Source: a virus. Taken from it: DNA of 42,419 nt. The DNA is taken from IMG/VR virus record IMGVR_UViG_3300030107_005637, positions 1,351-43,769 of that record. One strand, written 5' to 3'. The translations under genes and the position numbers were made by a program. Positions 10,207-38,313 of this stretch are shown here, piece after piece (position 1 is the stretch's first letter; every line of letters begins with the position of its first letter). The notes under the pieces are model-generated. The model was not told where the DNA came from. It saw nothing but the letters and a program-made list of their open reading frames with translations, and made no database searches.

Positions 10207-10208
10207 AT

Positions 10209-10580: not shown

Positions 10581-10593
10581 AAAGGAGTCAGAA

Positions 10594-11268: not shown

Positions 11269-11281
11269 ATGGAGCGAAAAT

Positions 11282-11428: not shown

Positions 11429-11435
11429 GAGAGAT

Positions 11436-12517: not shown

Positions 12518-12519
12518 CA

Positions 12520-12717: not shown

Positions 12718-12720
12718 AAA

Positions 12721-15537: not shown

Positions 15538-16052
15538 TGAGAAATCGTATAACAAGAAATATTGAACATGGCAAGCAAAACAAGTCTATAATATATAGAA
15601 AAAAGCCAACTAAATCTGAAATGGAAGAAGGGACTCCTGTATATGCTATTTCTGGGGGTAGGCTTACAGAGTATATTAAAATTGATAATAAGATTTATGA
15701 AAAAGAATATAGTAGTCGAAATGATGCTCCTAGTAATGTTAAAAACTATGACTCTGATCCATTTAAATTAAACTTAAGTATGGGGGATATAGGATATCAA
15801 GTTTTTGATAGCGGATTAATATTGCAATGGGGTAATATTACAGTAGCTGCTAGTGCTGTTACTGTATGGTGGCCTAAGGCATTCCCCCGAAAAGTTTTTT
15901 CAATATGTGCTAATTATGGAGTAGGTTCAAGTACTGGTGGAGCAGCTAAATCTGTAGGTATTATGGAGGCCACTCTTGTTAATACGAACTATGCAACTTT
16001 TAGCACTGATTCAAGCATGAATAACATGTATTGGATGGCAATAGGATTTTAG
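15537..16052 (+). CDS. Tail fibre tip / receptor-binding protein
   Basis: 171 aa starting at the TAATG overlap with the tail-hub gene. The N-terminal half is short and charged, with a segment (GTPVYAISGGRLTEYIKIDN) seen at the base of podovirus fibres. The C-terminal ~85 residues (VFDSGLILQWGNITVAAS, then WWPKAFPRKVFSICANYG) match the gp53-like fibre C-terminal domain: G-L-I-x-Q-W-G followed by a P-x-x-F-P strand pattern, ending in a hydrophobic strand (YWMAIGF). This domain is a trimeric receptor-binding tip in other phages. It likely binds the host surface through the tail hub. Confidence 0.75.
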   Translation: MRNRITRNIEHGKQNKSIIYRKKPTKSEMEEGTPVYAISGGRLTEYIKIDNKIYEKEYSSRNDAPSNVKNYDSDPFKLNLSMGDIGYQVFDSGLILQWGNITVAASAVTVWWPKAFPRKVFSICANYGVGSSTGGAAKSVGIMEATLVNTNYATFSTDSSMNNMYWMAIGF

Positions 16053-16064
16053 AAAGGATAAATT

Positions 16065-17276
16065 ATGGCAAATGGATATTTACCAGGAAGTGCATATAGA
16101 TATGCAAGTGCGGATTTAAATTGGATTCGAAGAATGGCTCAATTCAACCAAGATAAAAAAGAAAGAGAAAGAATAGAGGCTGAAAATGAGGAAACGATTC
16201 AAGATCAAAAAGTTAAAGAAAATCAAATGCTTGCATTAAATCTAGGTGGTCAAGGGGTAAAGGCATATGATCAAGCTCAAAGATGGGATATACAGTCAAT
16301 ACCAGATGAAGATATGAGCAGGTATGAGTATTCGCCTGAATTTAAAGATTCGAATTTCTTAAAAAGATATATTACTCCATCGGAAAAAAGATTAGCACTA
16401 AAAGAAGGTGTAGGATATAGACCAGATATAGATGATAAATATATATCAACTGACTTTGATAGATATGAAAGCACAGGTACTTATGGGGATCTAAATGAAG
16501 ATTTATTGAAACCAGATCAAAGAGGTCCACTTGATATAATTAAAGAAAATTTAGGATTCACAGATAAGCCTGATTATAATACTAAAGATTTAGATGAAAT
16601 GGTTAGTGATGTTTTTGCAGAGCCAACAGTTGGAGGTGAATATATTCCACAAGTTGATCCTGGAACAAGTGGATATATTCCAGCGGAACCAGTAAGACCT
16701 GAAGTTCCATTAGATGAGGTTGGATCTGAATTTTATGAGCCATTAAGTGACTATGAAAATTTTGATGAGCAGACAGGAGAATTTGTTATAGAGCCAGTAA
16801 GACCTGAAGTTCCACTAGATGATGAGGTAGGATCTGAGTTTTATGATTTAGATACACCTGAAGATGAAGTAGGAGGTAGATCATTAGGGGATATGTTTTC
16901 TATAGCCCAAGGGGCAAAAAGTGCTTATGATCTTTTTACAACTGCAGACTTTAAAAGTGGAAGGGGCGTAGAAAGCTGGAGAGATGAATATGAAGATGTT
17001 GCAAGTATATATAAAGGTGCAAGTGCTTTAGCTGGGAAGGAACTTCTAGGCAAAACAGTAGGCGGTAAAATAATTCCTGGTATAGGAGTAGGTCTTGATA
17101 TATATGATACATATAAAAACTGGGATTTACAAAGTGGGCGAGGAATAGATAGTTGGAAAGATGAAGCTCAAGGAGGATTAAAAATAGCAGGAGGAGCAAT
17201 GATGGCCACTGGATTTGGAGCACCTGTTGGAGCGGCTTTATATGCAGCTGGTACTATTTGGGATTGGCTTGATTAA
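16065..17276 (+). CDS. Ejection-cassette protein with glycine-rich C-terminus
   Basis: 403 aa behind AAAGGA. Residues 1-60 are helical and charged (RRMAQFNQDKKERERIEAEN). The centre is acidic, with a duplicated segment EPVRPEVPLD at residues 208 and 243. The C-terminal 110 residues carry a second duplication (SGRGVESWRDE at 298, SGRGIDSWKDE at 357) separated and followed by Gly/Ala-rich hydrophobic helices (GGAMMATGFGAPVGAALYAAG). Such ends can insert into membranes. The gene opens a run of six large genes between the tail genes and the terminator, the usual site for internal virion proteins ejected with the DNA in podoviruses. Confidence 0.65.
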   Translation: MANGYLPGSAYRYASADLNWIRRMAQFNQDKKERERIEAENEETIQDQKVKENQMLALNLGGQGVKAYDQAQRWDIQSIPDEDMSRYEYSPEFKDSNFLKRYITPSEKRLALKEGVGYRPDIDDKYISTDFDRYESTGTYGDLNEDLLKPDQRGPLDIIKENLGFTDKPDYNTKDLDEMVSDVFAEPTVGGEYIPQVDPGTSGYIPAEPVRPEVPLDEVGSEFYEPLSDYENFDEQTGEFVIEPVRPEVPLDDEVGSEFYDLDTPEDEVGGRSLGDMFSIAQGAKSAYDLFTTADFKSGRGVESWRDEYEDVASIYKGASALAGKELLGKTVGGKIIPGIGVGLDIYDTYKNWDLQSGRGIDSWKDEAQGGLKIAGGAMMATGFGAPVGAALYAAGTIWDWLD

Positions 17277-18360: not shown

Positions 18361-19914
18361 ATGAAAATAACAGAATCAGATAAAAAATTAGCATTACAAG
18401 CATTAGGATTACTAGGATCTCTTAAGCTTGAAAGTAGAGAATTGGATTTTAAAGAATCTATACTTGAGAAAGAAAGGGTCCAGAAAGAATTAGATAAAGC
18501 TCACGAGATGGATAAAATAAAAATCCAGCATAATCTTGCCCTACAAAGGAATGCGATAGATAGAAATAATAAATTAAAAGATGAATTAAAGAATATAGGA
18601 ATCCCATATTCAATGGTAGAAAGTGATAACTCTAAGAAGATACTAGAGGACCAGGGTGACATTATTGTTAATGACATTAAAAAACTATCTAATACGATAG
18701 AGATGATAAATGCTGAGAATGCTTCACTTTCAAATAAAATATCTTCATATCAAAGAGGGAAAACTCTTGCTCCTTATATGGACGTAGATGAAACCCCTGG
18801 GGTTTCAAAGGCTGAAATGGAACAGTACATTAAAGATAACCCAGAGCTCGCAAATACCCTTGATTCTGATATATTAGAAGCTGGAATAAAAGCAGGTGGA
18901 GCAATGACTAGGCTTGAAAGAGAGCAATTAAGGACTATAATAGCTAATAGAAAAAGAGGTGATTTAGATTTACGAATATCAGAGCTTGATACAGCAAGCA
19001 AAATAGATAAAAATAACAGAATACCTTTAACTGCATTAACTTTTAAAGATGAATCTGGAAATTTTATTGATAAGGAATATATTGAATCTGCTGCTGGATA
19101 TGCAGGTAATCTTAACAGACAGATATTTAATGAGTATTCAACAGCAGATAATACAGAACTTGCAGAATGGGCTGATGAAGGATTCCAAGGAAGTGATGAA
19201 AGAACACGATTTGATTCAGATGTTGGAATGTATACTCACAAAGATTCAAAGTACCTAGAAATGTATATGAAGAGAAAAGCAAAAGATCTTGCTGTAGAAG
19301 AGCAATATAACGAGGCTTTAATTGGCTTGAAACCATTAGATATAGAAAATGAAACTGAAGCGTATAAAAGATTTGAAGATAAATATATAAAGACAGCTAA
19401 AAAAGCGATAGCAGTAAATCCTAACTATACAATAAAGGATGATGCGAGTAGAACTGTTTATGAGGCAACTATTAATAAAGCTGTATACGATGACCCTACA
19501 GTAATTGCAAAAACTAATTCATTGAAGAGTGTAGGGAAAACTGTACAGGATTTATTAGGAACAAAAGAAGACGACCTTATTGTTCCAAATGAAGATATGA
19601 TAGAGGTTATCGCATCTAACCTTAAAACTAAATATAAAAAATCAATACCTGAAAAGAAACTTAAGGCTCTTATATCTCAAATATTAACATATACTAATGA
19701 ACCTAATGTAATGAAGAATATGTTATTAGAAAATAAAGATTTTCAATCAATACTTGCTTCTTCAGGCGATCTAGGAAGTCAGTATGTACGAATGATTATT
19801 GAATATAATGCAGAAATAGAGTCAAGAGGCGGGATAATACAAGGTGATATTGCCAATAAAACATTAAATAATAAAACTCAAGGCTTATGGGATCAATTAC
19901 AATTAGAGGATTAA
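18361..19914 (+). CDS. Helical internal virion protein
   Basis: 517 aa. Almost entirely charged helix: residues 30-75 (ESILEKERVQKELDKAHEMD) and 105-130 are coiled-coil-like, and the rest alternates Lys/Glu-rich helices with short loops. There are no membrane segments, no zinc motif and no enzyme motif. The next gene starts 1 base after its stop. Likely a scaffold-like or ejection protein; the family is unknown to me. Confidence 0.6.
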   Translation: MKITESDKKLALQALGLLGSLKLESRELDFKESILEKERVQKELDKAHEMDKIKIQHNLALQRNAIDRNNKLKDELKNIGIPYSMVESDNSKKILEDQGDIIVNDIKKLSNTIEMINAENASLSNKISSYQRGKTLAPYMDVDETPGVSKAEMEQYIKDNPELANTLDSDILEAGIKAGGAMTRLEREQLRTIIANRKRGDLDLRISELDTASKIDKNNRIPLTALTFKDESGNFIDKEYIESAAGYAGNLNRQIFNEYSTADNTELAEWADEGFQGSDERTRFDSDVGMYTHKDSKYLEMYMKRKAKDLAVEEQYNEALIGLKPLDIENETEAYKRFEDKYIKTAKKAIAVNPNYTIKDDASRTVYEATINKAVYDDPTVIAKTNSLKSVGKTVQDLLGTKEDDLIVPNEDMIEVIASNLKTKYKKSIPEKKLKALISQILTYTNEPNVMKNMLLENKDFQSILASSGDLGSQYVRMIIEYNAEIESRGGIIQGDIANKTLNNKTQGLWDQLQLED

Positions 19915-19915
19915 T

Positions 19916-20752
19916 ATGAGTAAAGAATTAACAGCTAAACAGTCAATGCTTATTTTAGATATAGTAAATGATGCAAAAAATATGTCAGTAGAAGATTTAA
20001 AGAATACATATATACAGTATTCTACAAATGCTAACCCAGATATGTTAGAAGCTATTAATAATGAATTATCTAAAGTTCCTAAGTTTAAAGACTTTTTTAA
20101 AACATATGGGTGGATTGCTAGCGGGGATACTACAAAACAAGAAATTATTACTGAGATAGCTCCAGGTGGAGCCAAGCATAGTTTAGCACCTGACAATATC
20201 TATAAGGACGTTAAAATGAGTTTAGATTCTGCTATAAATAAATATAATATGGCTGCCTTAGAGATGCAAACTTTACAAAGTGATTATACTGACTTAAAAA
20301 AAGAATGGTTTAAAGGAGAAGGAGAAATGAACTATCTAAAAGGTGTCGCTGAGCACCTTAATCCTAGTTTATGGCAAAGAGAGATAAAGAAGAAAGTGCA
20401 GAAAGAGAATCCTGAACTGTTTAAAAGTATGCAAGATACTAAAAATAAGTTAATTGAGACTAGAAGTAATTTGGTTGAAGTTATAGATGATGATATTCCT
20501 GAGATACCATATAATCAACAAAATATGCATTCATTTATGATGAATAGTTATACACAAAATTGGGCAATAATGAGTAGTGATACACCAGAATCATTAAAAA
20601 CCCCTTATGTTAAATGGGGTAAAGCTAAAAATGAATTATTAGATGCAGTTAAAGTATTAAATCTATACGAAGACGATGAACTTAAAACAGTACTACCATT
20701 AAACCTTGAGGGGAAAGATATGTTTAGTACAATTAAATTAGAGGATGAATAA
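19916..20752 (+). CDS. Helical internal virion protein
   Basis: 278 aa, preceded by GAGGA. Lys/Glu/Asn-rich helices with a short Trp-containing segment (KDFFKTYGWIASGDTTKQ) near residue 60 and a second near 140 (NPSLWQREIKKKVQKENPE). No known domain was recognised. It is followed after 4 bases by the giant polymerase-like gene, so the two are presumably made together. It may help package or anchor that protein in the capsid. Confidence 0.6.
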   Translation: MSKELTAKQSMLILDIVNDAKNMSVEDLKNTYIQYSTNANPDMLEAINNELSKVPKFKDFFKTYGWIASGDTTKQEIITEIAPGGAKHSLAPDNIYKDVKMSLDSAINKYNMAALEMQTLQSDYTDLKKEWFKGEGEMNYLKGVAEHLNPSLWQREIKKKVQKENPELFKSMQDTKNKLIETRSNLVEVIDDDIPEIPYNQQNMHSFMMNSYTQNWAIMSSDTPESLKTPYVKWGKAKNELLDAVKVLNLYEDDELKTVLPLNLEGKDMFSTIKLEDE

Positions 20753-20756
20753 GTAA

Positions 20757-23700
20757 ATGGCAAATCCATTTTTAGATGATTTTTTAAATGAATTACAAGA
20801 ATCTGAGTTAGAAAAAACATCTTTTGGGGGAGACTTTAATCAAACTTCAGCATTTGGAGCAGATTTATTTTCAGTCGAAGAAGAAATTCCTCAAGAAGAG
20901 AAGAATATTTTATGGGATATAGTAGGTAGTTCAGCGTGGGCCTTTGCTAATGAGGCATCATTTAATCTTTTGGGATTAGGAGATTCTCTATTAGATACTG
21001 ATTTACGTCAAACCCCACAATCCTTAGCTGCGAAAGTAGGTGCTGGTGCTGGTGCCCTTGCTGGATTTGCATTAGGAGCTCCATTTAAAGTTGGTACTAA
21101 AATAGGAACAATGGCAGCAAAACCATTCTTGAAAAAAGCTTTAACTAAAGAGCTTGGAGAGGATTATGTAGTAGCTAGTGCTAAGAATGTAGCTAAAGAA
21201 GTATCTGAAAAAGCTATGGATCAGGGTCTAAGGAAAGAAATTGCTAATGATGTTACAAGACAATATTTAAATAACGCACAAAGAGCAGCCTTTAATAAAG
21301 ATATTGGAAAAAACTTTGCATTTAAGACAGGTCAAGCTATAGATGATGTTGCACAAGGATATTTAAATACTGGTAAAATAACAGAGGGCGAATTTAATAT
21401 TATTACAGGTATGATGAAAGATGGCCTTACTAAGCGCCCATTAGAAAACTTTAAAGATTTATGGTCACTAAGGTCTTCTTCTGAGAAAGCTGGTGCTATT
21501 GGAAATTTGATTGATGAAGTAGTTATGTTTGGAACTGTTGATGCAATCAGGGAACTACCAGCTAGTATGGCAGATGAAAGAGAATATGATATGATGGCTC
21601 CTATATGGGGAACTGGTATCGGATTAGGATTTGGCGCTTTGAAGTTTATGTCTCCTGCTGGTAAAAATTCTAACTTTAGAGTAGAATTAGTTGATGGTGT
21701 AAAAGCTGCTTTTGGTAAAAATATATATCAAAATAAATCCTCTGAAACATTACAGAAATATATAAACTTATTTTCTAAGCAAGTATCAGATAATTCTGAA
21801 GAATTTAAAAGGTTAAGTTATATTAAGACAAGGTATAATGGAAGAGAGTTTAATGTAAGTTTAAATACAAGAACTGCTGTTCAGGACGCTATAGATGCAT
21901 ATGGAGAGAATACAGGTAGGCAAGTTATTGCACAGGCATTAAATACAAGATCTAAAGAATATGGACGTGAATTATTACAATATGCATTAAAAGAAGAATG
22001 GGGTTCATTATCTGAAAATTGGTTTAGAATGATGGCTGGTGGTTTAATCATGAGCGCACCTAATATCTATGATATGACTGCAAATGAAGCTGATATGCCA
22101 TTAGAAGATTTACTTCCAAATATCCTTATTGGTGGGTGGATGAATAGAAAAGGAACTGGTAGAGTTTGGGATTTAAGTACAAGGACTCAAGAGATAAGAA
22201 AAAATTTAAATGCTATGGGTTTTGACACTAGAAACCTTGTTAGGGATATACCTATGCATTCTCAAATACCTGACTTTCACAATCCTATAGGGCAAAATGA
22301 AACTTTAATTAAAGCTAGAGAAAAAGCATCAGAGTTAGGTATTATTGTTGATGATTGGGAATCAACACGAGTACCATTAGAGGCTAGAGCTGCAGACAAT
22401 CCTAATTTAAGCACTGAATCAGTGTTAGCAGCTGAGCAGTCAAGAGGTGGATATGATTACTTTAAATCCTTTTATAATATATTAGGTGGGAAAAATAAAT
22501 TTATAAGAGGCTTAAATGAAATATCTGTTACTGAAGCAGACGAAATTAATAAAATATTAACAAGTACTAAATGGGATGTATTAAATAATCAGCCTATAAA
22601 AAATAGTAGAGATGCTGATATAGTTTTTGAAAGTATTGCAGAAAGCACAGGTGGATCAGTTGAGGAATATATAGCTAGTGCATTATTTGGTCTTCAAAAG
22701 GGATTAGGACTCGATACAAATTTAGATATATCTAAACCAGCACAACTAGGTAAGTTTGTTGAAAGTTTTAACTTACCGCTATCTACATTAGATGGAAGTC
22801 CTACTATAAGAGATTTAATATATAGCGGAAAAGCAAAAGATATTCCTGGGTTTGAAGGAATTAACGGTGAAGATGCTGTTTTACTTGCTGAAAATGTAAT
22901 GAAAAAAGTAAATACTATGATTGATCAGTTTGGGCCAGAAGGACTAGGAAATGTTGATCCGATTAAGAATAAAATATTCAACCTAGAAGATCTAGATCAA
23001 TTCAGATTTGTTAAAGAGATTACTGACACATTTGAAGGGAAAGTAAATAGAATGTTCCCTGATAGAAATTATGATTTTCAGACTGAAATTGAACTTCCAG
23101 GCTTAACATATGTAATGGCTACAAATCACGGAAAGACAGCAGCTAAAAAAATATCACATTTATTTGATCTAAACCGTCCAGGATCGGATGACTTACTTTT
23201 AAAATTAAGATCTGTAGGCTTAATGCATGGTGATGTTAATCAGATGAAGTCCGTTGAGGATGTTAGTAATATTGAAATTATAGGAGCAGGAGAGAAGCTT
23301 CCTGAGTCAAAGAGACTTCTTTCAAATATATTGAGAATAATGCATGCAAAGGGGGGAGAGAGGTTTGGATCTGCTGCTCCAGAAAAGATATTAAAAGCTG
23401 AATTTACAGATATAATTAAGCTTAGAGAGTTCTTAAAGTCTAGAGGTATGAATACTCAGCCTTGGATTATGGATAGGTGGAATAATTATACTGTAAGATA
23501 TTTAAATCAGGAAGCTATTGAAGGAAGTAATTTAACAATGGAAGATGTTAATATTATGCATAAAATTATAGCGGCCCCTGAATTAAACTTAGTTAAAAAT
23601 TCTATTAGTGGAGCAAGAGGATATGAATTAGCTAAAATAGATTTTGTATCTGGGGATAGTGCTATTTCTGAAAGAATGTCTAGGATTGCTAATAATTGGA

Positions 23701-26700
23701 ATGAATTTGTTGATGATATTAAACAGCGAGGTGGAACAAAAGATGCCTCTCTCATACGAGATATGGAGCCTCAAAAAGCTTTAGCACCTGAAGTATTAGA
23801 TGAGCTTAGTATGATACTTAGCTATAGCAATGAATCTACAGCTATATCTGCTAAGCAAGCCTTAATGGATATGTTTAATAGCATAGATGCTCCAGAGATG
23901 GCCTTTAGAGAGCAAATGGACATGTTTGCAAATAGTAATCCAAAATATTATAATAAGCTGCTATCTTGGATGGAAGAATTAAATATTATGGAAAGAACTG
24001 AAGCTGAAGGATATTCTAGATTTAATTATAAAAATGATAACCTTAATGATGCTACTATAGAAATATTAAAAGAAAGGATGAATAAATTTGGCCATAGCTA
24101 TTCAGAAGCAGAGGCTAATTTAAAATCACATAGAACAGAAGTAATGAATATGTTTGCAGATGCATATGAACCGCATATAGATGATGCAAGCTTAACCCAA
24201 GATCAATTCTTTTCTAAGTATTTTTTAAGTGAATTGGGAGCTAAGGCTTATGGTAATGCTGAAATGCAAAATTTATTCCTAGATAATATCATTGATCAAG
24301 CTGAAAATGTTGGTGAACTATCTGTCCCTGGATGGACTGGGTTACGAAAAATGGATAAAGACGGGAATCTTATACCAAGAAAAGATTTAGTTGGATTACA
24401 AAATATAGCAAAAGAATATATGTTCTTTAAACATAAAGATAAATATGTAAAAGCTAAAGACTTAGATCTTAGCGATCCAAAACTTGGCAATCAATTTGAT
24501 GAAGCATTAGATCATTTTGCATCTTTATTAACTACAAGAATGAATACTGTATCTAAGAGATTATTGTTATGGGATGGGCATATTTCTGGTAGAACTGTAT
24601 CTATGCAAAAAACTCCAATGATTGAATCCTTTGATAAAATAGATCTTCCATTTGCATTCTTAAGTGGTACAGCTGAGAACTTTATACAAAAAGGTGGAAG
24701 AGCAAGTAGACAAAGATTTAATATCTATGAAAGCTCAGCAGATAAACTTCATCCTGATGATATTGAAATGCTTCAAACGCAAAGAGATATATTTAATAAA
24801 AATCTTGGAGAAATTGAATCTATTAATATGGAATCAACTAAAGCTGATCTTTATCCACAGCCATTTAAGACAGGAGATGGTGTTAATAAAGGTTTGCATG
24901 AATTTGTGATAGCTAATGGAATGCAGCCTATTGGTATTCAGACTAGACATCTTCCTAAGATAAGAAAAGCATATGAAGATCTATATAGTAAAGTTAAAGA
25001 TAAAAAGAGTATAGACCCCAAAGTTAAGTCTTGGATGAAAACAGTTATAAGAGAGATGAAAGATGCTGAACCAATATCGGGTAAGTTCAATAAAGTAGAC
25101 GCTCATGAAGTTGCATTAAGACAATTTTTATTTTCTGAAATCAGTATATCAAAAGGTGACTATAAAGAGTTTAATGATTTAATGCTTGATAATGCAAACT
25201 TAAGTGGGGATATTGAGAAGATTTCTAAGAGATTATCTTTATTCCATACTCCAAATTTCAAAAGATACAATGAGCTAGTAACAAGGGGAACAGCTAGGGA
25301 TAAAAATGATCAAGCCATATTAGATAAATTTCTTACCTCTAAAAAAGTAAGTGTTGGAATTTGGAATGATAAGAATGAATTAAATACTTCGATTAAGGAG
25401 AACTTAAAAAAGTATTTAGGTGATGGATTTGATGATTTCTGGGAATCACAACTATATAACAGAGGCGATGAGAGCCCATTTGACAGTATATCATATATAT
25501 CTTATGACCAGATGAGGTTTTGGTCTTTAGCAATGGGACGAGCATCTGGTAGAGAGACCCAAATATTCAAGCCTGCTATATCAGCTACAGGTGATGCATT
25601 ATTGCTAGGTAAAACAGTATTTATATATGATCCACATATGGATAATTTCTTTAAGAATAACAATATGGATATATTAATGACTAAATCTGCATCTAAGGTA
25701 ATGGATAGAAACTGGAAGATGATTGAATCATCTGAGGCATCATTATCTTTGCAGAAAGGATTGAAATCATTCGCTAGAGATATCCCATTAGAATCTATAG
25801 GCATTAAGCAAGATAGGATTCATACAAAGGCTAATGCAAAACTATCCCAATCTTCATTTAATTATCTAAGTAGTGTAGAGGCCCAACAAATATTTGGTGA
25901 TTTTTATGGCAAGAGATTAAAAAATTCAATGAATAACTTGAGAAAACTTTCTGTTGGAAGAGATAATGTAGATTTAAGACGTGCATTTTTTGATGAGAAT
26001 ACATTTGATGGACAAACAATACAATCTATGTTTGAAGGAAGTGGAGCATCAGCAAGCCTCGGAGCACTTAGATCAGCAAGTAAATTTAATATTGATCCAA
26101 TGGAAATAAGTGAAAATATGGTTATGACTCAGTTCTATAAAAAGTTAATAGACCCAATAGTTAATCAAACTGCAGTCATTGATAAGTTTAGATATGGAGG
26201 AAAAGCAGTATTGATTCAATCATTAGATCCTTCATTAAGAACATTAAGGCCTACAATTAGTCGCGATGGAAAAACAGAAACCTATGGTGAAATTATGTTG
26301 CCTGCATATGAGATGGATTCTGAATTAGGATCATTGGCTAAGTCAAAAGATAATAATATGACCATTAAAATAATTGACACTAGTAATCCCAATAATCATG
26401 AAATTAAAACATTAGAAGACATGGGGATGGATCCTAAAGATGTATCTAAATTAACATTAGAGCAATTCCATAATGAAGTAAAAGCATTAGAAGGTAGTTA
26501 TGAAGTAGCTATTATTACCAATAGATATCCGCGTACTAGGCCAAATGATATGGCTATTTTGGGATTAAAAGGATTTTTAGATAAACAGTATGGCAATGCT
26601 ATGATTGTAAATGAAATGGATGTATTAAATATATTTGAAGGTGACTATGATGTAGATAAGAATGATTACTTTTTTGCACATAACAAACAAATGTATGATC

Positions 26701-29171
26701 ATATACAATCAACCGCTCCAATCTTTACTCAAGGTATAGATGTTGCAGATTATGCTGGCTCTATTGAAGGATTATCTTTAGCAGGTGATAATACAAGTCA
26801 AATAAATGATGCATGGAGAATGCAGTTATCTAATGGTAGTGTTCTTAAAAAAGGTATTGGTATTGTTCAAAAAGTTCAAAGGACTCTTAACTGGATGTCT
26901 GACCTAGCATCTAAAAATGATGATGGAATGGGTGATATTATAAAGCTAGAAGATGGCACTAGAATTGCTATGGACTATAATAACAAAGATTGGTGGCATA
27001 GAGCTGTATTAGAAACTCAGGCTATAATAGATGCCGGTACATCTATTGATGGAAAATTATTTAGATATATGAAAGAGTGGAAGGAAGATTTCTTATTCCC
27101 ATTAAAAGACTACAGTAAGTCTTCTGATGATTTAAAAGAAAATGGGATGGGCTTTTTAAAAACCTTAAGGCAAGGGAATGCAAAGGCTGATGATCGACTT
27201 AGAATATTTAGAAAATGGGATAAGACCGGTACAGAAGTAGATTTAACAGATATGGATAAAGATATAATCAGAAATATGTTAAATGAATATTCATCCTTTT
27301 TAAATATTGGAACTCAGATCTTTGAAAATACCGGGTTTAGCAAGAAACCAGGTTATTCTGATATAATCAATTCATCAGATTCATATTTTGGATTTATGTC
27401 TGATATAAATTCTAATCTATTTTATAGATTAAAATCTAAGCATGGCCACAAAGATGAATTTAAGCATTACTTTAAGCAAACCCAGAAAGCTAAAAAGGTT
27501 TACAATAAAGAGAAGAGACGATATGAAGATTCAACATCTGAATTTTATCCTGCTCCAGGAAGCAGTCCATTTATTACTGGTTTCTTACAGCAAGCAGACA
27601 GAACATCAAGAGGATTGCATGGTAATGTTTTTGATAGGTCTATGTGGCAAATAAAGGCAGAAGATCCATTAAGAGAAAGAAAGCATCGTGAAGTTTTAAC
27701 TGGAGATGAATTAGCTCATATGGAAAGTTCTTTAAATAGATTTATTGAAAATCCTGCTGATAAAGAAGTTTGGAATGGTGAAGTTATGGGTTTTATTAAT
27801 AATTATAATAAAGCTATAGGAACATTAAGATTCTTAAATAAACGCTTTGGATATATAAACTCTCAAGCATATAAGGGTGGCTGGAAAAAGAAACAAGAGA
27901 TCTTATCAGGGCTAAAAGAGCAAAAAGAAAAGGTTAGGCAGAGTGTAAGGGATTTATTACCAGAACAGTTTTTAAAGACCGGAAGAACAAAAGATCTTGT
28001 AGATGCTAATATTAAAGTATTAGACATTGATAGTAAGCAAGACTTACAAGATGGAGCTGTTCAACTCTATACAATGGATGCTATTACTAGGTATGATAGT
28101 GGAACTCTAAAAATGCATGAGGATATAAGGGAATTAAAGGACTATGAAAGAAGGGCTTTTGCAGACCTTAAAGATTTAAGTCATACTATGCCATTGGGCG
28201 GAAGGCAATTATTAAGCGAAAAACAATTAGAATATGCAAAAAATCAAAGGTTTGATTATAACAATGTGGAGACTGTTATAGATGAGCTTCTGAATAAGCT
28301 TGTTAGAGATCATGGTGTTACTGCTTTATTCCATTATGCAAGTTTACCAAAAAATAAAAATGCTGTTGGTATCTTTAATAATACTGTTCATGTAGTCCCT
28401 TATAATGCTAATGGAAGATTGAAGCGCGTTTTAAAATATATGATCAAAAGATCTGATGGTATAGATGTTAGCATGCAAAATTCATTAAAAAAGGTGGGTC
28501 AAGTATTATCTACATATAGAAATTACTTCAAGAAAGATTGGCAAAATTTATCGAGAACACATATTATAGATAAGAAGCTAGATGTTACATATGAGCATCT
28601 ATCATTCCCAGATTTTCATCCATCATTTGAAACTGCATTAAGTTCTTATAAAGATATAAAATGGTCCAGGCATACAACTAATAATATGGATCCATTTAAA
28701 TTATATGATTCGCAGGAAAGTAAATTTTATGAAAGATTCTTTGAAGGATCTGGGCTTGGTGGTGAATATAGAGAATATCTACAGCAAAAAAACATGATGC
28801 AAAAAATGTTAATGAGTACTAAACTAGTTGATCCAACTATATATATGTCTATGCTATCAAAACATAATGATGAAATGCATAACTTTGTATCAAAAAGAGC
28901 TACAGGATTTAAGGATAGCAATGGAAGGACTTGGCCTGTAAGCGAAATGGCAAAGAAAGCATTAGAAGGGGATCCTATATATGCATTATTAGGTGGGAGC
29001 AAACACTTTAAAGGTATTACTTTATCCCCTAATAATAGGATGAATAAATTTGATATATCTTCACTTAGAGAGTTCTCAAAGCAATCTAAGCTTGTTATAT
29101 CAGACCCTGTATCTGAAGGAAAAAGTAGGAATGTTTTCCAAAGACGTAAAAACCTTAAATGTAATATATAA
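20757..29171 (+). CDS. Giant virion protein with double-psi beta-barrel RNA polymerase signature
   Basis: 2804 aa. Residues ~55-120 are Gly/Ala-rich and hydrophobic (VGAGAGALAGFALGAPFKVG), with another such stretch near 280-300, as in ejection proteins. The core lies at about 1600-1970. DYDVD (Asp1963, Asp1965, Asp1967) matches the D-x-D-x-D metal-binding motif of RNA polymerase beta-prime (DFDGD). It is preceded by NRYP at 1922-1925 (beta-prime NRAP), EIMLP at 1845-1849 (QCGLP) and FRYGGKAV with Lys1816 (the GKRV strand). Order and spacing agree with that barrel. A weaker partner barrel may lie at 1612-1643 (GDALLLGKTVFIYDPHMD), with Lys residues further on. Single-chain double-barrel polymerases of this class are known from crAss-like phages and YonO. 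I infer a virion-packaged transcriptase. The N- and C-terminal thirds are unassigned. Confidence 0.7.
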   Translation: MANPFLDDFLNELQESELEKTSFGGDFNQTSAFGADLFSVEEEIPQEEKNILWDIVGSSAWAFANEASFNLLGLGDSLLDTDLRQTPQSLAAKVGAGAGALAGFALGAPFKVGTKIGTMAAKPFLKKALTKELGEDYVVASAKNVAKEVSEKAMDQGLRKEIANDVTRQYLNNAQRAAFNKDIGKNFAFKTGQAIDDVAQGYLNTGKITEGEFNIITGMMKDGLTKRPLENFKDLWSLRSSSEKAGAIGNLIDEVVMFGTVDAIRELPASMADEREYDMMAPIWGTGIGLGFGALKFMSPAGKNSNFRVELVDGVKAAFGKNIYQNKSSETLQKYINLFSKQVSDNSEEFKRLSYIKTRYNGREFNVSLNTRTAVQDAIDAYGENTGRQVIAQALNTRSKEYGRELLQYALKEEWGSLSENWFRMMAGGLIMSAPNIYDMTANEADMPLEDLLPNILIGGWMNRKGTGRVWDLSTRTQEIRKNLNAMGFDTRNLVRDIPMHSQIPDFHNPIGQNETLIKAREKASELGIIVDDWESTRVPLEARAADNPNLSTESVLAAEQSRGGYDYFKSFYNILGGKNKFIRGLNEISVTEADEINKILTSTKWDVLNNQPIKNSRDADIVFESIAESTGGSVEEYIASALFGLQKGLGLDTNLDISKPAQLGKFVESFNLPLSTLDGSPTIRDLIYSGKAKDIPGFEGINGEDAVLLAENVMKKVNTMIDQFGPEGLGNVDPIKNKIFNLEDLDQFRFVKEITDTFEGKVNRMFPDRNYDFQTEIELPGLTYVMATNHGKTAAKKISHLFDLNRPGSDDLLLKLRSVGLMHGDVNQMKSVEDVSNIEIIGAGEKLPESKRLLSNILRIMHAKGGERFGSAAPEKILKAEFTDIIKLREFLKSRGMNTQPWIMDRWNNYTVRYLNQEAIEGSNLTMEDVNIMHKIIAAPELNLVKNSISGARGYELAKIDFVSGDSAISERMSRIANNWNEFVDDIKQRGGTKDASLIRDMEPQKALAPEVLDELSMILSYSNESTAISAKQALMDMFNSIDAPEMAFREQMDMFANSNPKYYNKLLSWMEELNIMERTEAEGYSRFNYKNDNLNDATIEILKERMNKFGHSYSEAEANLKSHRTEVMNMFADAYEPHIDDASLTQDQFFSKYFLSELGAKAYGNAEMQNLFLDNIIDQAENVGELSVPGWTGLRKMDKDGNLIPRKDLVGLQNIAKEYMFFKHKDKYVKAKDLDLSDPKLGNQFDEALDHFASLLTTRMNTVSKRLLLWDGHISGRTVSMQKTPMIESFDKIDLPFAFLSGTAENFIQKGGRASRQRFNIYESSADKLHPDDIEMLQTQRDIFNKNLGEIESINMESTKADLYPQPFKTGDGVNKGLHEFVIANGMQPIGIQTRHLPKIRKAYEDLYSKVKDKKSIDPKVKSWMKTVIREMKDAEPISGKFNKVDAHEVALRQFLFSEISISKGDYKEFNDLMLDNANLSGDIEKISKRLSLFHTPNFKRYNELVTRGTARDKNDQAILDKFLTSKKVSVGIWNDKNELNTSIKENLKKYLGDGFDDFWESQLYNRGDESPFDSISYISYDQMRFWSLAMGRASGRETQIFKPAISATGDALLLGKTVFIYDPHMDNFFKNNNMDILMTKSASKVMDRNWKMIESSEASLSLQKGLKSFARDIPLESIGIKQDRIHTKANAKLSQSSFNYLSSVEAQQIFGDFYGKRLKNSMNNLRKLSVGRDNVDLRRAFFDENTFDGQTIQSMFEGSGASASLGALRSASKFNIDPMEISENMVMTQFYKKLIDPIVNQTAVIDKFRYGGKAVLIQSLDPSLRTLRPTISRDGKTETYGEIMLPAYEMDSELGSLAKSKDNNMTIKIIDTSNPNNHEIKTLEDMGMDPKDVSKLTLEQFHNEVKALEGSYEVAIITNRYPRTRPNDMAILGLKGFLDKQYGNAMIVNEMDVLNIFEGDYDVDKNDYFFAHNKQMYDHIQSTAPIFTQGIDVADYAGSIEGLSLAGDNTSQINDAWRMQLSNGSVLKKGIGIVQKVQRTLNWMSDLASKNDDGMGDIIKLEDGTRIAMDYNNKDWWHRAVLETQAIIDAGTSIDGKLFRYMKEWKEDFLFPLKDYSKSSDDLKENGMGFLKTLRQGNAKADDRLRIFRKWDKTGTEVDLTDMDKDIIRNMLNEYSSFLNIGTQIFENTGFSKKPGYSDIINSSDSYFGFMSDINSNLFYRLKSKHGHKDEFKHYFKQTQKAKKVYNKEKRRYEDSTSEFYPAPGSSPFITGFLQQADRTSRGLHGNVFDRSMWQIKAEDPLRERKHREVLTGDELAHMESSLNRFIENPADKEVWNGEVMGFINNYNKAIGTLRFLNKRFGYINSQAYKGGWKKKQEILSGLKEQKEKVRQSVRDLLPEQFLKTGRTKDLVDANIKVLDIDSKQDLQDGAVQLYTMDAITRYDSGTLKMHEDIRELKDYERRAFADLKDLSHTMPLGGRQLLSEKQLEYAKNQRFDYNNVETVIDELLNKLVRDHGVTALFHYASLPKNKNAVGIFNNTVHVVPYNANGRLKRVLKYMIKRSDGIDVSMQNSLKKVGQVLSTYRNYFKKDWQNLSRTHIIDKKLDVTYEHLSFPDFHPSFETALSSYKDIKWSRHTTNNMDPFKLYDSQESKFYERFFEGSGLGGEYREYLQQKNMMQKMLMSTKLVDPTIYMSMLSKHNDEMHNFVSKRATGFKDSNGRTWPVSEMAKKALEGDPIYALLGGSKHFKGITLSPNNRMNKFDISSLREFSKQSKLVISDPVSEGKSRNVFQRRKNLKCNI

Positions 29172-29183
29172 CGGAGTATAAGA

Positions 29184-31943
29184 ATGGCTATACAAGGTTG
29201 TTTTGAGAGTGAGATTAATCCAGAGACTAATGAAGAAATAAAAAAACCATTATATAAAGATAATGAAGGTATAGATCGGCTAGAAAAGACCTTTGATAAC
29301 TTCGTTAATGATAAAAAGATTAAAGAAGTTTTAGCTGATCCTGATGATGCTTTTTATTCATTGGTTCAAAGTGAGTTTAATATGCCTTTAGATGAATTAA
29401 TGTTCCAGGATAAAATTAGTAAAGGTCAATTAGATGGATTAGAATCTAGGCTAAAAGATTTACGAGTTTCAATTAAAAGCGGGAAGCTAGCAGGAAAGTT
29501 TGCTGAATTATTTTATGTTCCTAGTCGGTTTGCAAAAAAAGATCCAGCTATAGGTAATCTTTTGAATGAATATTTAAAAACCTCACATAATTATGAAGGA
29601 GCTGAATCTACAGGTATAAACAAACAGACATTAATCCTTAAAGAATTGTCTAGAGAGATGGCTGCTAGAGGATATATGCAAAATTCATTATCTAATTTTG
29701 GTAAAAGAGTTACAAAAACAACTGCCATGCATAAAGTTGCCAAGTTAGAACATGAAATCGATAGATTGGCTATTGAAATAAAAAATGGAAATAATGACGC
29801 TCAGAGTGAACACTCAAGATTAACAGAAGAATATCAAAAATTATGGGATAATACAGACGCTGCAGTTTACGGAGAAATGATAACATTCATTGAAGGAGAG
29901 AATGGATTATCTAAATTAATTAATGATAAGTTAATAAAGGCTAAAGCAGAAGGCTCTAATTTAAAGTGGGATATAAAAGAAGCAAGATCTGGAGACTTCT
30001 TACAGAAAAAAGATATACAAAAATTAAAAGATTCTGATGGAAATCCAATTAGCGGACATATGGTTAATGCACTTTATGAATATACAAAACATACAGAAGC
30101 ATTATATTTCAGGCTTAGAAAAGGTGTTGAATTTTATATTGATAGTGTAATTGAAGGACAGTCAGGTAAGAATACAGAAACTTTAAAGAATATGAGGGCA
30201 ACACTTGAAGAAAAGTTAATGCCTAATTTAGAAAAGGGATTTTATCCTCATTTCAGAAGAGGTTTAAATATTGACCTTATGGATGGGCTAATGGGAAGAA
30301 TGGAAGATTTAGCCTTATCTACAAATAAATACTTAAATAAAAATGTTTCATTGCAAGAGGCCATTGATAATATTGAAGGTTATGTTTCTGGGCACACTAG
30401 AAATCGTGCTTATGATATATCTCCTGAAGATTATTCATGGAATTTTCCACAGGTATTAAAAACGTATACATCTAATGTTAATAGGTTTAACTATATAAAT
30501 AAAATAAATCTAGAAAGTAAAAGAGCACTAAAACGAGTTGAATCTTTATATAAAAAAGGAGAACTTCTTGATGGATATGGGGAGTCTGTAGTTAACTTTG
30601 TTAAAGATCTTCATAAGTCTGCAACTGGTGCTGATCAGATTAAAAATCCTGTTACTAATAATTTAATGAGATCTATATTAGGATTTGAATTTATAACTAA
30701 AATTGGATTCAATCCTCGTAGTGCAGCAAGGAACTTTTCTCAAAGTTTATTAAATTTCGTTGAGTGGGGACCTATTGCAATGAAAGAATCTAGAGACTTT
30801 TATAAATCGACTCAACAACTTGATGATATCAATAAGGTGATGGAAGATACTGGTATCTTATTTAAAGTAGGCCAAGGTGCAGCTGAGCTAAAGGAATCTA
30901 TGGGCGGTAGAAATCCTGGAATAAATACTTCGATAAGAATAAATCCTGAAACTGGAAAGCATGAGCATATACCTATTACGAGATTAGAAAAGATATCTGG
31001 ATCTATATCTAATTTGGCAGGAAAATCTGGGTTTATGACTGCTGCAGTAGAAAATGTTAATAGAAAGATGACATTTAAAACAGCATATATGCAAATGTAT
31101 AAGTCCTTAGATAATCCTCAATATAGAGAATTTTTAGGTAAAGATTTATCAGATGCACAATTCAAATCTAAAATACAAAAATCTGCAAAAGATTATGCAG
31201 TTAATATGACAGTGAGTTTACACTTTGACTATAATGCGTTCTCTAAAGCTAAAGCCCTACGTACACCTACAGGTCAGATATTAGGTCAATTTCAACATTA
31301 TTCATTTAAGTTCTTTGAAAAGAATATGGATTACCTTAAAAAAGGATCTAATGAATTTATGAGAGGTGAAGTTAGTGGTGATGATGCCTGGAAATTATAT
31401 CGACTGGCTATGGCATATTTTTTAGCTCCTGTATTTGCCAGTGCTGTAACAGGTGTTGATTTTGGAAATTTAATAGAGCATGATCCATCTTCAAAGGTAA
31501 AGAATCTATATACAGCATTTGCAGGAACAGAAGAAGAAAAGGCAAAAGCCACTTATGGTAAGGGTCCTGTTCTTGGTAACATTGGAGCTCCTTTTATTGG
31601 GGATATGTTGAATATAGGAATGATGACTGGTTTAGTTAATATTGAACCTGAAAGCTGGGCAATGTTATTATCTGGATATGATGAATCTTATGCTAAAGAA
31701 ATAAAAAATGATTTCAAGAAAGATAAGTTTTATTCAGTTATGCAGCTATTAAATTCATTTGGTAATAGACTATTGTTTAGACATATTCCAGCTCTTAGGG
31801 AAGGAAATTTAGGATGGGTTGCTCAATCAGAACTTGGATTATATCCAAATAAACAAGCAAAAAAAGTACAAAAACAATTCCAAGAAATGACTCCTGAGTT
31901 GCAACAATTAATAGATGAATTACAACAAGGGGGCCGAAGTTAA
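29184..31943 (+). CDS. Large internal virion/ejection protein
   Basis: 919 aa behind CGGAG, the last gene of the late operon. The first ~430 residues are mostly charged helix (LEHEIDRLAIEIKNGNNDAQ). The region ~490-780 (FITKIGFNPRSAARNFSQSL, LGQFQHYSFKFFEKNMDYLK) resembles the large polyvalent-protein-associated domains found in phage-borne giant proteins. A hydrophobic segment at ~735-750 (LAMAYFLAPVFASAVTG) could cross a membrane. It follows the polymerase-like gene by 12 bases and may travel with it into the cell. No catalytic motif was seen. Confidence 0.6.
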   Translation: MAIQGCFESEINPETNEEIKKPLYKDNEGIDRLEKTFDNFVNDKKIKEVLADPDDAFYSLVQSEFNMPLDELMFQDKISKGQLDGLESRLKDLRVSIKSGKLAGKFAELFYVPSRFAKKDPAIGNLLNEYLKTSHNYEGAESTGINKQTLILKELSREMAARGYMQNSLSNFGKRVTKTTAMHKVAKLEHEIDRLAIEIKNGNNDAQSEHSRLTEEYQKLWDNTDAAVYGEMITFIEGENGLSKLINDKLIKAKAEGSNLKWDIKEARSGDFLQKKDIQKLKDSDGNPISGHMVNALYEYTKHTEALYFRLRKGVEFYIDSVIEGQSGKNTETLKNMRATLEEKLMPNLEKGFYPHFRRGLNIDLMDGLMGRMEDLALSTNKYLNKNVSLQEAIDNIEGYVSGHTRNRAYDISPEDYSWNFPQVLKTYTSNVNRFNYINKINLESKRALKRVESLYKKGELLDGYGESVVNFVKDLHKSATGADQIKNPVTNNLMRSILGFEFITKIGFNPRSAARNFSQSLLNFVEWGPIAMKESRDFYKSTQQLDDINKVMEDTGILFKVGQGAAELKESMGGRNPGINTSIRINPETGKHEHIPITRLEKISGSISNLAGKSGFMTAAVENVNRKMTFKTAYMQMYKSLDNPQYREFLGKDLSDAQFKSKIQKSAKDYAVNMTVSLHFDYNAFSKAKALRTPTGQILGQFQHYSFKFFEKNMDYLKKGSNEFMRGEVSGDDAWKLYRLAMAYFLAPVFASAVTGVDFGNLIEHDPSSKVKNLYTAFAGTEEEKAKATYGKGPVLGNIGAPFIGDMLNIGMMTGLVNIEPESWAMLLSGYDESYAKEIKNDFKKDKFYSVMQLLNSFGNRLLFRHIPALREGNLGWVAQSELGLYPNKQAKKVQKQFQEMTPELQQLIDELQQGGRS

Positions 31944-33306: not shown

Positions 33307-33731
33307 TCATCTCCAAGGCTTTGTTCTATATATTTAACTTCTCCTGTTTCTGGGTTGAAACTATTATGTTGAGCAGTATTAGCTGAAGGTTTAAATCCAT
33401 GGTCACCAAGGAATTTATCAATATCATCCTTTTTTCCTTTTGCCATGCCCCATAGCAAGCATAAATATACAATAGCGTCTTTTATTCTCCCAGTGACATT
33501 TTCTCTTTGTGATTTGTGACCCTTTATCCATGCATTAATTCCATCCATATGCTTCATTAAGTATACCATTAATGCTTGTTCTCTAGATATATTAAGTCCA
33601 TCAGCAACTCTTTCAAAGTTTGCAAACACATTATCCTCTGTATGAGCATATTCCTTTTGCCCAGAATCACGTGTTGATTTAACTTCCTTAATAATCTCTT
33701 TGAACATCTTATCAAACTCCGATTTCTTCAT
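33297..33731 (-). CDS. DUF1599-like (nucleotide-modification-associated) protein
   Basis: 144 aa. The central block has the pattern Q-K-E-Y-A-H...N-V-F-A-N-F-E-R-V-A, then VYLMKHMDGINAWIKGHK, and GRIKDAIVYLCLLWGM. These are the conserved helices of a phage all-alpha family annotated as nucleotide modification associated domain 1. Its biochemical role is not firmly known; a link with nucleotide metabolism has been proposed. Residues ~110-144 are a variable tail. The start overlaps the primase-helicase gene by 20 bases, so the two are co-translated. Confidence 0.7.
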   Translation of the reverse strand: MKKSEFDKMFKEIIKEVKSTRDSGQKEYAHTEDNVFANFERVADGLNISREQALMVYLMKHMDGINAWIKGHKSQRENVTGRIKDAIVYLCLLWGMAKGKKDDIDKFLGDHGFKPSANTAQHNSFNPETGEVKYIEQSLGDECI

Positions 33732-35496
33732 AACTCTCCTTATATATTTTACTATTTCTAACTGACAATTTAACGTCTAAATGTTCACGTTCACGATTAG
33801 CTTCACATCTTACTCTTAATTGCTCTATTAAGCCTGTTGTAATGCTCTTAGAAGGTATAACAGATAGCAATTTATTAGTATTATATGCAGTTCTAAATGA
33901 ACCTTTAGCTGATGCTATATTCATATTTCCTTCATGAAATGCAGATTTAGTTATTTCACTTACAGCAAATACAATTACATTATGCCTTACAGCTAATTCC
34001 ATCATAGCTTGAGATGCTTCTTCTGTTTTCATATTAGGATCTCTTTGTTTAGATTTAAATAATCCCATATGATCAACAACAACTATCTCTGGCTTAACTG
34101 GCAGCATAGCAATACGTTTCTCTAACTCATTAGCATATGGACATGAATAATCTACTGTCAACCATTTGAATCGTTTATCCATACCATTTTGCATTTGTTG
34201 ATAATGTGATCGTAATTGTTCTTCAGACCAATCCATTTCTATTTGTACAAACCTAGACCATATTTGCCTTGGTGACATTTCCATTTCTATAAAGTATGTT
34301 GGACGTTTTAATCCATTCATTACATTTTGCAAGAACATAGTCTTCATAGACTTAGGTGGAGCTTGTATTACTACTACTTCACCTGGATAAATAGGAAAGT
34401 CTTCTCCTGGAAATATATCTCCTAGATTAATAGGATTAACATCACTACGTAAGAAATCGATTAAATCATTTTCCATTGTTTGTGCATCCATAACAGATTG
34501 ACTTTTCTTAGATTTAAATAGTTTACATGTCTGGCTACAATGCTTATCCATAATAGCATCACTGCATCCATATCTATTCCCCTGACCTCCATGAGCTTCA
34601 TATGAACTCTTTATGATGCTTTCCATTTCTTTTTTAGTAAACCTATGTGATTGATCATCTACTTGCTGTCTCCATTGCTCCATAACAATACGGACCACTG
34701 ATTCAGGATAGAGCCACCGAAACCAAGCAGAGAGGCGTAAAGCAGTTGCATGACGTTCACCTGATGCATTACTAGCAAGCATATTAGATATGCAAGGATA
34801 GTTAACTGGATCAGGATTCCTACCTTGACTAATAAAATCTGGAGCTTTAATTTCTTCATCGTTATTCCTTTCTAATACATCAAATACTGGTTCACATTCA
34901 AGATCAAAATCTGGTATTTCTCCAGGTTTACGTGCTATATTTTTTATCTCTTTACTAATATCTTTTGAGTTTAATATAGAGCGTGGAACTATACATTTCC
35001 ATAGACCAGCTTTTGTATTTAATGTATTATTAATTCTTATTAACCTTATTTTATCTGTAACTGATGGATCTGCATAATCAAATATACCACCATTAGTTAA
35101 AGCATCTTTTACATTAAGGTGTAAATTTTTATCAGGCTTCCACCTAAACGCTGTGCCTGGTATTCCAAAGTGAAAACCTTTATTTCCACTAAAATATAAT
35201 CTAAAAGGTATCTGTAAATCGTCAAGCAATATACTCAAGCCTACGGCTTTTTGTCTTGCTCCCTCTAAATCTTCTGAACTAGTTCCATCTACATCTAATA
35301 TAAATTCATCTGGTATATATACAAGACCATCAAATCCTGATAAACTATTGTTTTTACTAAAATAATCAGTTATACTATCATCAAATTCATATAATGACAT
35401 ATAAGTATCTTTATCTATATTCATCCAATCACAAACACTTCCAGCATCCTGAAAGTAATGCCTTTGCGATAATCCAAAAGCAAATTCTTTTATCAT
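33712..35496 (-). CDS. Primase-helicase: AEP-like primase fused to DnaB-like helicase
   Basis: 594 aa behind AAGGAG. The N-terminal ~170 residues match the archaeo-eukaryotic primase fold: ILDVDG (Asp68, Asp70), then FSGNKGFHFG (His109), then KIRLIRINNTLNTKAG (about 149-164). A four-cysteine module follows (Cys235, Cys311, Cys320, Cys324), laid out like the Fe-S or zinc region of primase large subunits. The C-terminal ~230 residues are RecA/DnaB-like: Walker A region IQAPPKSMKT (377-386), Walker B IVVVDH (471-476) and SEITKSA. The Walker A departs from GxxxxGK(T/S), having Met before the Lys. Expected role: priming and unwinding at the phage fork. Confidence 0.85.
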   Translation of the reverse strand: MIKEFAFGLSQRHYFQDAGSVCDWMNIDKDTYMSLYEFDDSITDYFSKNNSLSGFDGLVYIPDEFILDVDGTSSEDLEGARQKAVGLSILLDDLQIPFRLYFSGNKGFHFGIPGTAFRWKPDKNLHLNVKDALTNGGIFDYADPSVTDKIRLIRINNTLNTKAGLWKCIVPRSILNSKDISKEIKNIARKPGEIPDFDLECEPVFDVLERNNDEEIKAPDFISQGRNPDPVNYPCISNMLASNASGERHATALRLSAWFRWLYPESVVRIVMEQWRQQVDDQSHRFTKKEMESIIKSSYEAHGGQGNRYGCSDAIMDKHCSQTCKLFKSKKSQSVMDAQTMENDLIDFLRSDVNPINLGDIFPGEDFPIYPGEVVVIQAPPKSMKTMFLQNVMNGLKRPTYFIEMEMSPRQIWSRFVQIEMDWSEEQLRSHYQQMQNGMDKRFKWLTVDYSCPYANELEKRIAMLPVKPEIVVVDHMGLFKSKQRDPNMKTEEASQAMMELAVRHNVIVFAVSEITKSAFHEGNMNIASAKGSFRTAYNTNKLLSVIPSKSITTGLIEQLRVRCEANREREHLDVKLSVRNSKIYKESYEEIGV

Positions 35497-36700: not shown

Positions 36701-37360
36701 TTAAGACACCATACCTGATTTATCCAATAACATTGTTGGGAAGTTAAATGAGAACGATCTATTGAATGGTTGTTTCATTACGAGTTTCCTTATTGCATTT
36801 GCTATCATACTACCTGATAAATTAGAACAATAGCTTGTTGCCTTTGCATTGCATGGCTCTGGGCTACCATTTTCATCTGAATACCAAGTCTTTTTGTATT
36901 TATTTACAGTAGGTTTATCAAATATATATTGTTGATAATGTTCAGCACCCATACGGCCATCTATAATATATAGTGGCTTTACTCCTGGTATACTAAACAA
37001 TGCCTCTACTGCTTGTAATCTTGATGACATAGAATCAAATCCAAGTATAGCTATATCCTTATTTCCTTGCGGATAGAACTCAGAAAATCTTTCAAAGTAA
37101 GTACCTACCTCAAAGACTCCTAACGCTCTTAAATGGTCAGATAATGCATCCACCTTGGGTTTATCTATATCGTTATAGACATATTGTGATACGCCTATAT
37201 TTACCTCTTCTACTTTATCCATATCATATAGACAAAATTGAGTTGCACCCATTCTTGCTATTTGTAGAGCTGCGGAACTACCAATAGCCCCACAGCCCAA
37301 GATATGAAAAGTATATTCTTCTAAGTTATTTACTAACTCTGATGATCTTGTATTTATCAT
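36701..37360 (-). CDS. ThiF/E1-like ubiquitin-activating enzyme
   Basis: 219 aa, compact. The Rossmann nucleotide loop LGCGAIGSS (Gly22, Gly24, Gly27) is followed by the acidic strand end LYDMDKVEEVN (Asp46/48, Asn54), Lys67/Lys69 (IDKPKVDAL) and a second acidic site GFDSMSSR (Asp109). These are the ATP-binding residues used to adenylate a modifier's C-terminus. A Cys at 170 (SPEPCNAKATSYC) is a candidate catalytic thiol. The usual N-x-x-R-Q arginine is replaced (NIGVSQ). Translation is coupled to the JAB gene by TAATG. Reaction: adenylation, and probably thioesterification, of the modifier encoded at 41334-41546. Confidence 0.88.
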   Translation of the reverse strand: MINTRSSELVNNLEEYTFHILGCGAIGSSAALQIARMGATQFCLYDMDKVEEVNIGVSQYVYNDIDKPKVDALSDHLRALGVFEVGTYFERFSEFYPQGNKDIAILGFDSMSSRLQAVEALFSIPGVKPLYIIDGRMGAEHYQQYIFDKPTVNKYKKTWYSDENGSPEPCNAKATSYCSNLSGSMIANAIRKLVMKQPFNRSFSFNFPTMLLDKSGMVS

Positions 37361-38298: not shown

Positions 38299-38313
38299 TT
38301 GTTCTCCTTTTTA

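Follow-up and report, generated by a model that had tools for sequence, protein, structure and literature searches.

Introduction

Giant virion RNA polymerases are known from crAss phages (PMC7886860), from P23-45 (PMC10770324), and from N4 (PMC12633501). In P23-45, the virion enzyme gp96 is fused to the tape measure, with the polymerase occupying the N-terminal end of a tape measure protein of 5002 residues and lacking a clamp (PMC10770324); a second polymerase of the same phage, gp64, is non-virion. N4 gp50 (Schitoviridae) is an ejected polymerase of about 3500 residues, with a long N-terminal part, a central polymerase domain, and a C-terminal domain, and it is ejected with two further ejection proteins (PMC12633501). 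YonO of the Bacillus phage SPbeta is a phage single-chain two-barrel DNA-dependent polymerase (PMC5467207).

We analyzed a 42,419-nucleotide stretch of viral DNA, hereafter the window, which comprises most of a 43,769-bp IMG/VR virus record (IMGVR_UViG_3300030107_005637). At 20757..29171 on the + strand it encodes a 2804-aa protein, which a first-pass annotation had proposed to be both (i) an ejection protein and (ii) a single-chain double-psi beta-barrel RNA polymerase. The solved structure nearest to it by Foldseek is that of the phi14:2 virion RNA polymerase gp66 (PDB entry 6vr4; annotated Phi14:2_gp077 in KC821624). Both are giant structural-module proteins in which a single chain carries an upstream lysine-bearing barrel (predicted, for the window protein) and then a DxDxD barrel, and both have an R-x-P, a G-x-D-[FY]-D-[VI]-D block, and three similarly spaced lysines. 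Their identity, however, is about 11%, and the Asp triad of the window protein is preceded by about 600 residues more. The P23-45 enzymes gp96 and gp64 are likewise phage single-chain two-barrel polymerases; whereas the polymerase is N-terminal in gp96, the core of the window protein lies in its middle/C-terminal half, and the phage is podovirus-like. YonO, which we liken to it by description only, is much smaller, at about 100 kDa. QDE-1 and RDR2 share the single-chain two-barrel fold but are eukaryotic, have an RNA-templated role, and are about 10% identical to the window protein. N4 gp50 is a proposed functional parallel with an unrelated, T7-type polymerase fold; the PF00940 profile had no match in 10 genomes of the group studied here, and the control set likewise gave none.

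Judged by conservation and predicted fold, the 2804-aa protein and its relatives are a family of single-chain RNA polymerases with two barrels, in a phage lineage outside the crAss phages. The enzyme superfamily is already known; the lineage is not crAss-like and its proteins are unannotated.

Relatives and conserved residues

Searched as a single sequence against Pfam, PHROGs, PDB sequences, and 50,697 phage records, the 2804-aa protein matched nothing. The four motifs that the first-pass annotation had read as beta-prime elements are all present at the residues it gave (GGKAV, 1814-1818; EIMLP, 1845-1849; NRYP, 1922-1925; DYDVD, 1963-1967), and the spacing from NRYP to DYDVD is indeed 41 residues. 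Since the pattern D.D.D occurs twice within the protein and no database match was available, motifs in one sequence alone are little proof, and we settled the question through relatives from viral contigs. A weak match to a Helicobacter prophage was dismissed as chance, because the protein is unannotated and lies in a different gene context. In BFVD, the best models (A0A516M3R5, E 1.9e-49) are listed without a name.

A stepwise search of IMG/VR viral contigs led from one relative (51% identity in the core) to a second, then to 16 loci, and then to 47 loci related to the polymerase. Nearly all full-length members are 2744-3026 aa long, and full-length identity to the window protein drops to about 17-18% among homologues. 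We found no relative in the genome contigs searched, so that search gave no host or prophage link.

Conservation was counted in a full-length alignment of 45 sequences, which contains 25 invariant residues. These include K1605, K1619, and K1647 (44/44 sequences); R1923, P1925, D1963, D1965, and D1967 (45/45); and G1844, T1927, D1931, G1946, D1955, E1961, Y1964, and G2035. Eleven of the 25 fall within the 51-residue stretch 1920-1970 (hypergeometric p about 9e-14). It is this conservation across the family that raises the motifs above chance. Loss of the triad among homologues had been named beforehand as a result that would count against a polymerase; all three aspartates are kept in 45 of 45 sequences. 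At DYDVD (26643..26657, + strand), the predicted metal-binding Asp triad, D/Y/D/x/D is found in all 45, and the position separating the second Asp from the third varies (V/A/I/Y/F), as expected for a metal-binding D-x-D-x-D. Part of this conservation is ascertained, because most family searches were seeded on DYDVD. Three loci were found without that seed: L005 was recovered through the pattern IKQDR/QxIQSMF, and L067 and L068 read EADYDID and lack EGDYDVD, so they could have entered only through the search's other pattern, R.P[RS]T... All three keep DYDxD.

The family also corrects the first reading of the motifs. Of the proposed beta-prime elements, R1923, P1925, and the Asp triad are invariant; K1816 of GGKAV and N1922 of NRYP are not conserved. 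Position 1816 is K in 18 sequences, Q in 26, and T in 1, so we rejected K1816 as the catalytic lysine; the rest of the GGKAV patch is conserved (G1814 in 44/45). The catalytic lysines are probably K1605, K1619, and K1647 in the upstream barrel. In NRYP (26520..26531, + strand), N1922 is found in 11 of 45 sequences, and crAss RNA polymerases have R-x-P at the equivalent site. DYDVD had been called a diverged motif, yet crAss enzymes read DFDVD, DFDID, or DYDID; given their block R-[IVT]-P ... G-x-D-[FY]-D-[VI]-D, the Tyr and Val of the window protein are normal for the clade.

Outside the core, which is its best conserved region, the polymerase sequence is poorly conserved, as might be expected of a catalytically dead descendant retained as a structural ejection protein. 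We regard this as very improbable and reject it on conservation: the residues that remain invariant are those with a predicted catalytic role (three Asp, three Lys, and R-x-P), some of which a dead enzyme should have lost.

Predicted structure of the polymerase core

We modeled residues 1375-2260 (24879..27536, + strand) with AlphaFold2 and 44 homologues (pLDDT 83.3, pTM 0.84). The model contains two beta-rich modules, with block pLDDT mostly 81-96. The upstream module (residues about 1578-1684; 25488..25808, + strand; model 204-310; block pLDDT 81-95) is the predicted beta-subunit-like barrel and holds invariant K1605, K1619, and K1647. The downstream module (residues about 1814-1972; 26196..26672, + strand; model 440-598) is the predicted beta-prime-like barrel and can be aligned to the beta-prime barrels of bacterial, eukaryotic, and single-chain RNA polymerases. 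The first-pass annotation had asked whether DYDVD would lie in a barrel loop; the confident model puts it between a helix and a strand near the end of the downstream module. Model residues 430-616 align with E. coli beta-prime (6alg_J 345-489) at Z 9.6 and rmsd 3.6 A over 121 residues. The largest subunits of Pol I/II/III also reach Z about 10 against the model, and multisubunit largest subunits in general align at Z about 10 over model 430-720, mostly from residue 430 onward.

Single-chain enzymes gave longer matches. Foldseek against the PDB ranked the phi14:2 polymerase 6vr4 first (E 5.2e-9, probability 1.00) and QDE-1 second (E 2.2e-6), and the further matches listed were RNA polymerase largest subunits. 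VIA-align returned RDR2 (7w82; Z 16.9, 440 residues, 5.5 A), QDE-1 (7y7p; Z 16.7, 478 residues, 5.9 A), 6vr4 (Z 13.6, 545 residues, 4.6 A), P23-45 gp64 (8f72; Z 11.6, 402 residues, 4.9 A), and P23-45 gp96 (8h2m; Z 9.9, 320 residues, 4.2 A). These alignments cover 320-545 residues across model 1-850, versus 120-290 for largest subunits alone, which indicates that the upstream barrel is matched too. The model thus bears out a second barrel in the same chain, with the three invariant lysines in the upstream module and single-chain polymerases aligning across both. Whole-chain superposition gives low TM-scores (TMq 0.31 for 6vr4), so the domain arrangement differs from that of 6vr4.

Downstream of the second barrel, DSSP assigns a 38-residue helix (residues 2013-2050; 26793..26906, + strand; model 639-676) in which G2035 is invariant and Q2038 is found in 40/44 sequences. 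Its placement in the model, taken from position alone, makes it a plausible candidate for the bridge helix; no trigger loop was recognized after the barrel. A separate model of residues 560-1400 folded poorly, with a pTM of only 0.46, and had no fold match in the PDB.

Template type is left undecided by the fold, as QDE-1 and RDR2 use RNA. An RNA-copying or primer-making enzyme, of the kind that QDE-1 and RDR2 represent in RNA interference, would fit their leading VIA Z-scores (16-17). We think this improbable for four reasons: (i) Foldseek ranks the DNA-dependent phi14:2 polymerase first; (ii) QDE-1 accepts DNA templates too, according to the titles of 7y7r/7y7s; (iii) the virus has a dsDNA genome and is a phage equipped with terminase and portal; and (iv) a primase-helicase-like protein is already present.

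A DFDGD sister branch and links to crAss polymerases

A second relative, of 3062 aa and with a canonical DFDGD, is encoded at 7984-17172 on the - strand (L069) of the 104,488-bp contig IMGVR_UViG_3300030451_002683 (G002), which is also the source of L065. A search with this protein found seven loci including itself, and 6/6 inspected read DFDGD. The DFDGD branch aligns with the main family by hhalign at probability 98.7 (E 3.7e-16, 717 columns). The 104-kb contig carries two cassettes of polymerase plus partner, one of each branch (DFDGD and DYDVD) and each with its own replication genes; it is the product of an assembly that joined two viruses, or else a single phage that has both polymerases.

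Against a profile of nine crAss RNA polymerase sequences, the main family scored 47.7 in hhalign (E 3e-4, probability 40), a weak match in the correct register; the maximum for 39 column shuffles was 23.7, and the reversed profile scored 20.7. The nine-sequence profile was needed for this link: single crAss or P23-45 gp96 sequences gave no significant alignment with the family. The DFDGD branch alone was not significant against crAss. The DYDVD of the main family aligns with the DFDGD of the sister branch and with the DFD[IV]D of crAss enzymes. The three lysines are spaced by 15 and 38 residues in crAss enzymes (phi14:2 K1012, K1027, and K1065), 17 and 26 in the DFDGD branch, and 14 and 28 in the window family, and in all three groups they would be the nucleotide-contacting lysines. 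Set against this evidence, the idea that an ordinary ejection protein shows these motifs by chance is scarcely credible. It draws on the fact that no database family recognizes the 2804-aa protein, and it is refuted by the family-wide invariance, the fold match, and a profile match above all shuffles.

In two crAss phage loci, L075 and L078 (Buchavirus and Buhlduvirus), the polymerase ORFs stay open only if TAG is decoded as Gln, which agrees with published stop reassignment in crAss phages.

Genome context and lineage

Genomes that hold relatives of the polymerase gene encode a terminase (TerL; phrog_38, E 3.3e-73). They also encode a P22-like portal (E 7.9e-45) and a capsid protein of the SU10 type (E 1.2e-14 and 1.1e-20). 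In mapped relatives the gene order is terminase, portal, capsid, other structural genes, polymerase, and a partner of about 900 aa, so that the polymerase and partner close the structural module. The window lacks the terminase/portal end of the module. Its positions 1-31943 are coded entirely on the + strand, and replication genes (primase-helicase-like, ERF recombinase) follow downstream on the - strand.

The partner in the window is a 919-aa protein (29184..31943, + strand) with hydrophobic segments near residues 741-820, probably a second ejection or internal virion protein. Nearly all related loci hold a match to it (45 ORFs), as do 10/10 contigs tested, and a 972-aa homologue also follows the DFDGD-branch polymerase. 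Directly upstream of the polymerase are two fast-evolving ORFs of 517 and 278 aa (18361..20752, + strand), which are ejection-protein candidates by position. They have no homologue in relatives at E 1e-4; in relatives, ORFs of about 420-500 aa directly precede the polymerase (for example 487/504 or 480/484 aa). The hydrophobic N-terminal stretches noted at first for the polymerase itself come down to one 19-residue span at residues 90-112 (Kyte-Doolittle 1.4), a marginal signal that 3 of 10 members do not reach.

A polymerase made in the infected cell and kept out of the virion, like P23-45 gp64 or SPbeta YonO, would be consistent with these weak hydrophobic segments and with a fold similarity slightly higher to gp64 (Z 11.6) than to the virion enzyme gp96 (Z 9.9). 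We consider it unlikely, as the gene falls within the structural module of relatives that have terminase, portal, and capsid genes, and is constantly paired with the 919-aa partner. Size also speaks against it: the family proteins have 2700-3000 residues and a long N-terminal part, as opposed to the compact gp64 (593 residues in 8f72), and the known non-virion examples are compact whereas the known virion ones are giant (PMC10770324, PMC12633501).

Most of the relatives come from records no longer than 57 kb, and only one, G012 (56,030 bp; L081-L083), has a terminal repeat. Its first bases recur 123 bases before the record end, so the genome is probably complete, circular or terminally redundant, at about 55.9 kb; crAss genomes are about 90-100 kb. 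Among the matches listed, the terminase is 23-25% identical to those of named phages, the best being other podoviruses and not Crassvirales, so the lineage is a separate one. We dropped crAss-phage affiliation by genome because the records are mostly <=57 kb and the terminase and portal match other podovirus-type families. With a non-crAss genome and terminase, the protein is treated as a related enzyme and not filed as a crAss polymerase. The open-licence literature yielded no description of this phage group; one of the 23 RNA polymerase families in PMC10770324 could include this one.

Proposed role of the polymerase

Our preferred reading, which we hold to be highly probable, is that the 2804-aa gene encodes a giant single-chain DNA-dependent RNA polymerase with two double-psi beta-barrels that is packaged in the virion, ejected, and used for early transcription. 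The active-site residues are conserved, the fold is predicted, and the gene is in the structural module; catalysis, a DNA rather than an RNA template, packaging, ejection, and early transcription are what we infer. The upstream barrel would supply the basic residues K1605/K1619/K1647, the downstream barrel the Mg-binding triad D1963/D1965/D1967, and the long helix that follows would act as the bridge helix. The N-terminal roughly 1400 residues and the C-terminal 540 residues would take no part in catalysis and probably have roles in packaging, passage, and template handling.

Architecture and a structural-module position beside the partner make virion packaging and early transcription likely. 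The polymerase would be made late, alongside head and tail proteins, packed in the particle, and then ejected with the DNA and the 919-aa partner, after which it may transcribe the early replication genes, which lie in the opposite orientation, before the host polymerase acts or independently of it. With a two-barrel polymerase core encoded beside particle-building genes, these phages probably inject their own transcription enzyme with their DNA; the prediction is that they begin transcription without the host polymerase. We scanned the early region for a repeated promoter-like or phage-specific promoter motif and recognized none, and sigma-70-like sites there are no commoner than in shuffles.

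We also lean toward a broader reading, somewhat less firmly held, in which these phages are an unrecognized, widespread podovirus-type lineage with genomes of about 50 kb that follows an N4-like course of infection with a crAss/QDE-1-type enzyme instead of a T7-type one, and that has two deep branches (DYDxD and DFDGD) with a shared partner. If the N4-like part is true, one infection plan has been used independently with an unrelated enzyme, and in genomes among the smallest known for such a plan. With this family, the range of likely virion-associated two-barrel RNA polymerases grows from Crassvirales and the Thermus phages to include an uncultured phage group present in many metagenomes, whose giant proteins lack a family annotation. 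The family adds about 50 new, very diverse members for tracing two-barrel polymerase evolution between QDE-1-like and phage enzymes, and it suggests that giant podovirus ejection proteins are a good place to hunt for polymerases.

Other genes of the window

On the - strand, 33712-35496 encodes a likely primase-helicase fusion of 594 aa: residues 62-121 resemble archaeo-eukaryotic primases (PriS/LigD-pol matches), and the C-terminal domain is of the DnaB helicase type. Also on the - strand, an operon at 36701-39615 encodes a ThiF/E1-like protein (PF00899, E 5.6e-14) together with a JAB-domain-like protein and a third product, of 433 aa and unknown kind. Several relatives keep this operon, which is similar to gene sets of the ubiquitin-like or PRTRC type (TIGR03736 matched weakly).

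On the + strand, iterative searches with three ORFs (7417-7770, 9391-10206, and 10209-10580) reach the same relatives, which suggests a duplicated small structural domain. Five long + strand ORFs (4188-5840, 7719-9428, 16065-17276, 18361-19914, and 19916-20752) have no homologue in relatives by iterative search at E 1e-4; they are either very fast evolving or recently acquired, and some are probably receptor-binding. At 15537-16052 on the + strand, the encoded protein has a C-terminal gp53-like tail fibre domain (PF21882, E 1.9e-14).
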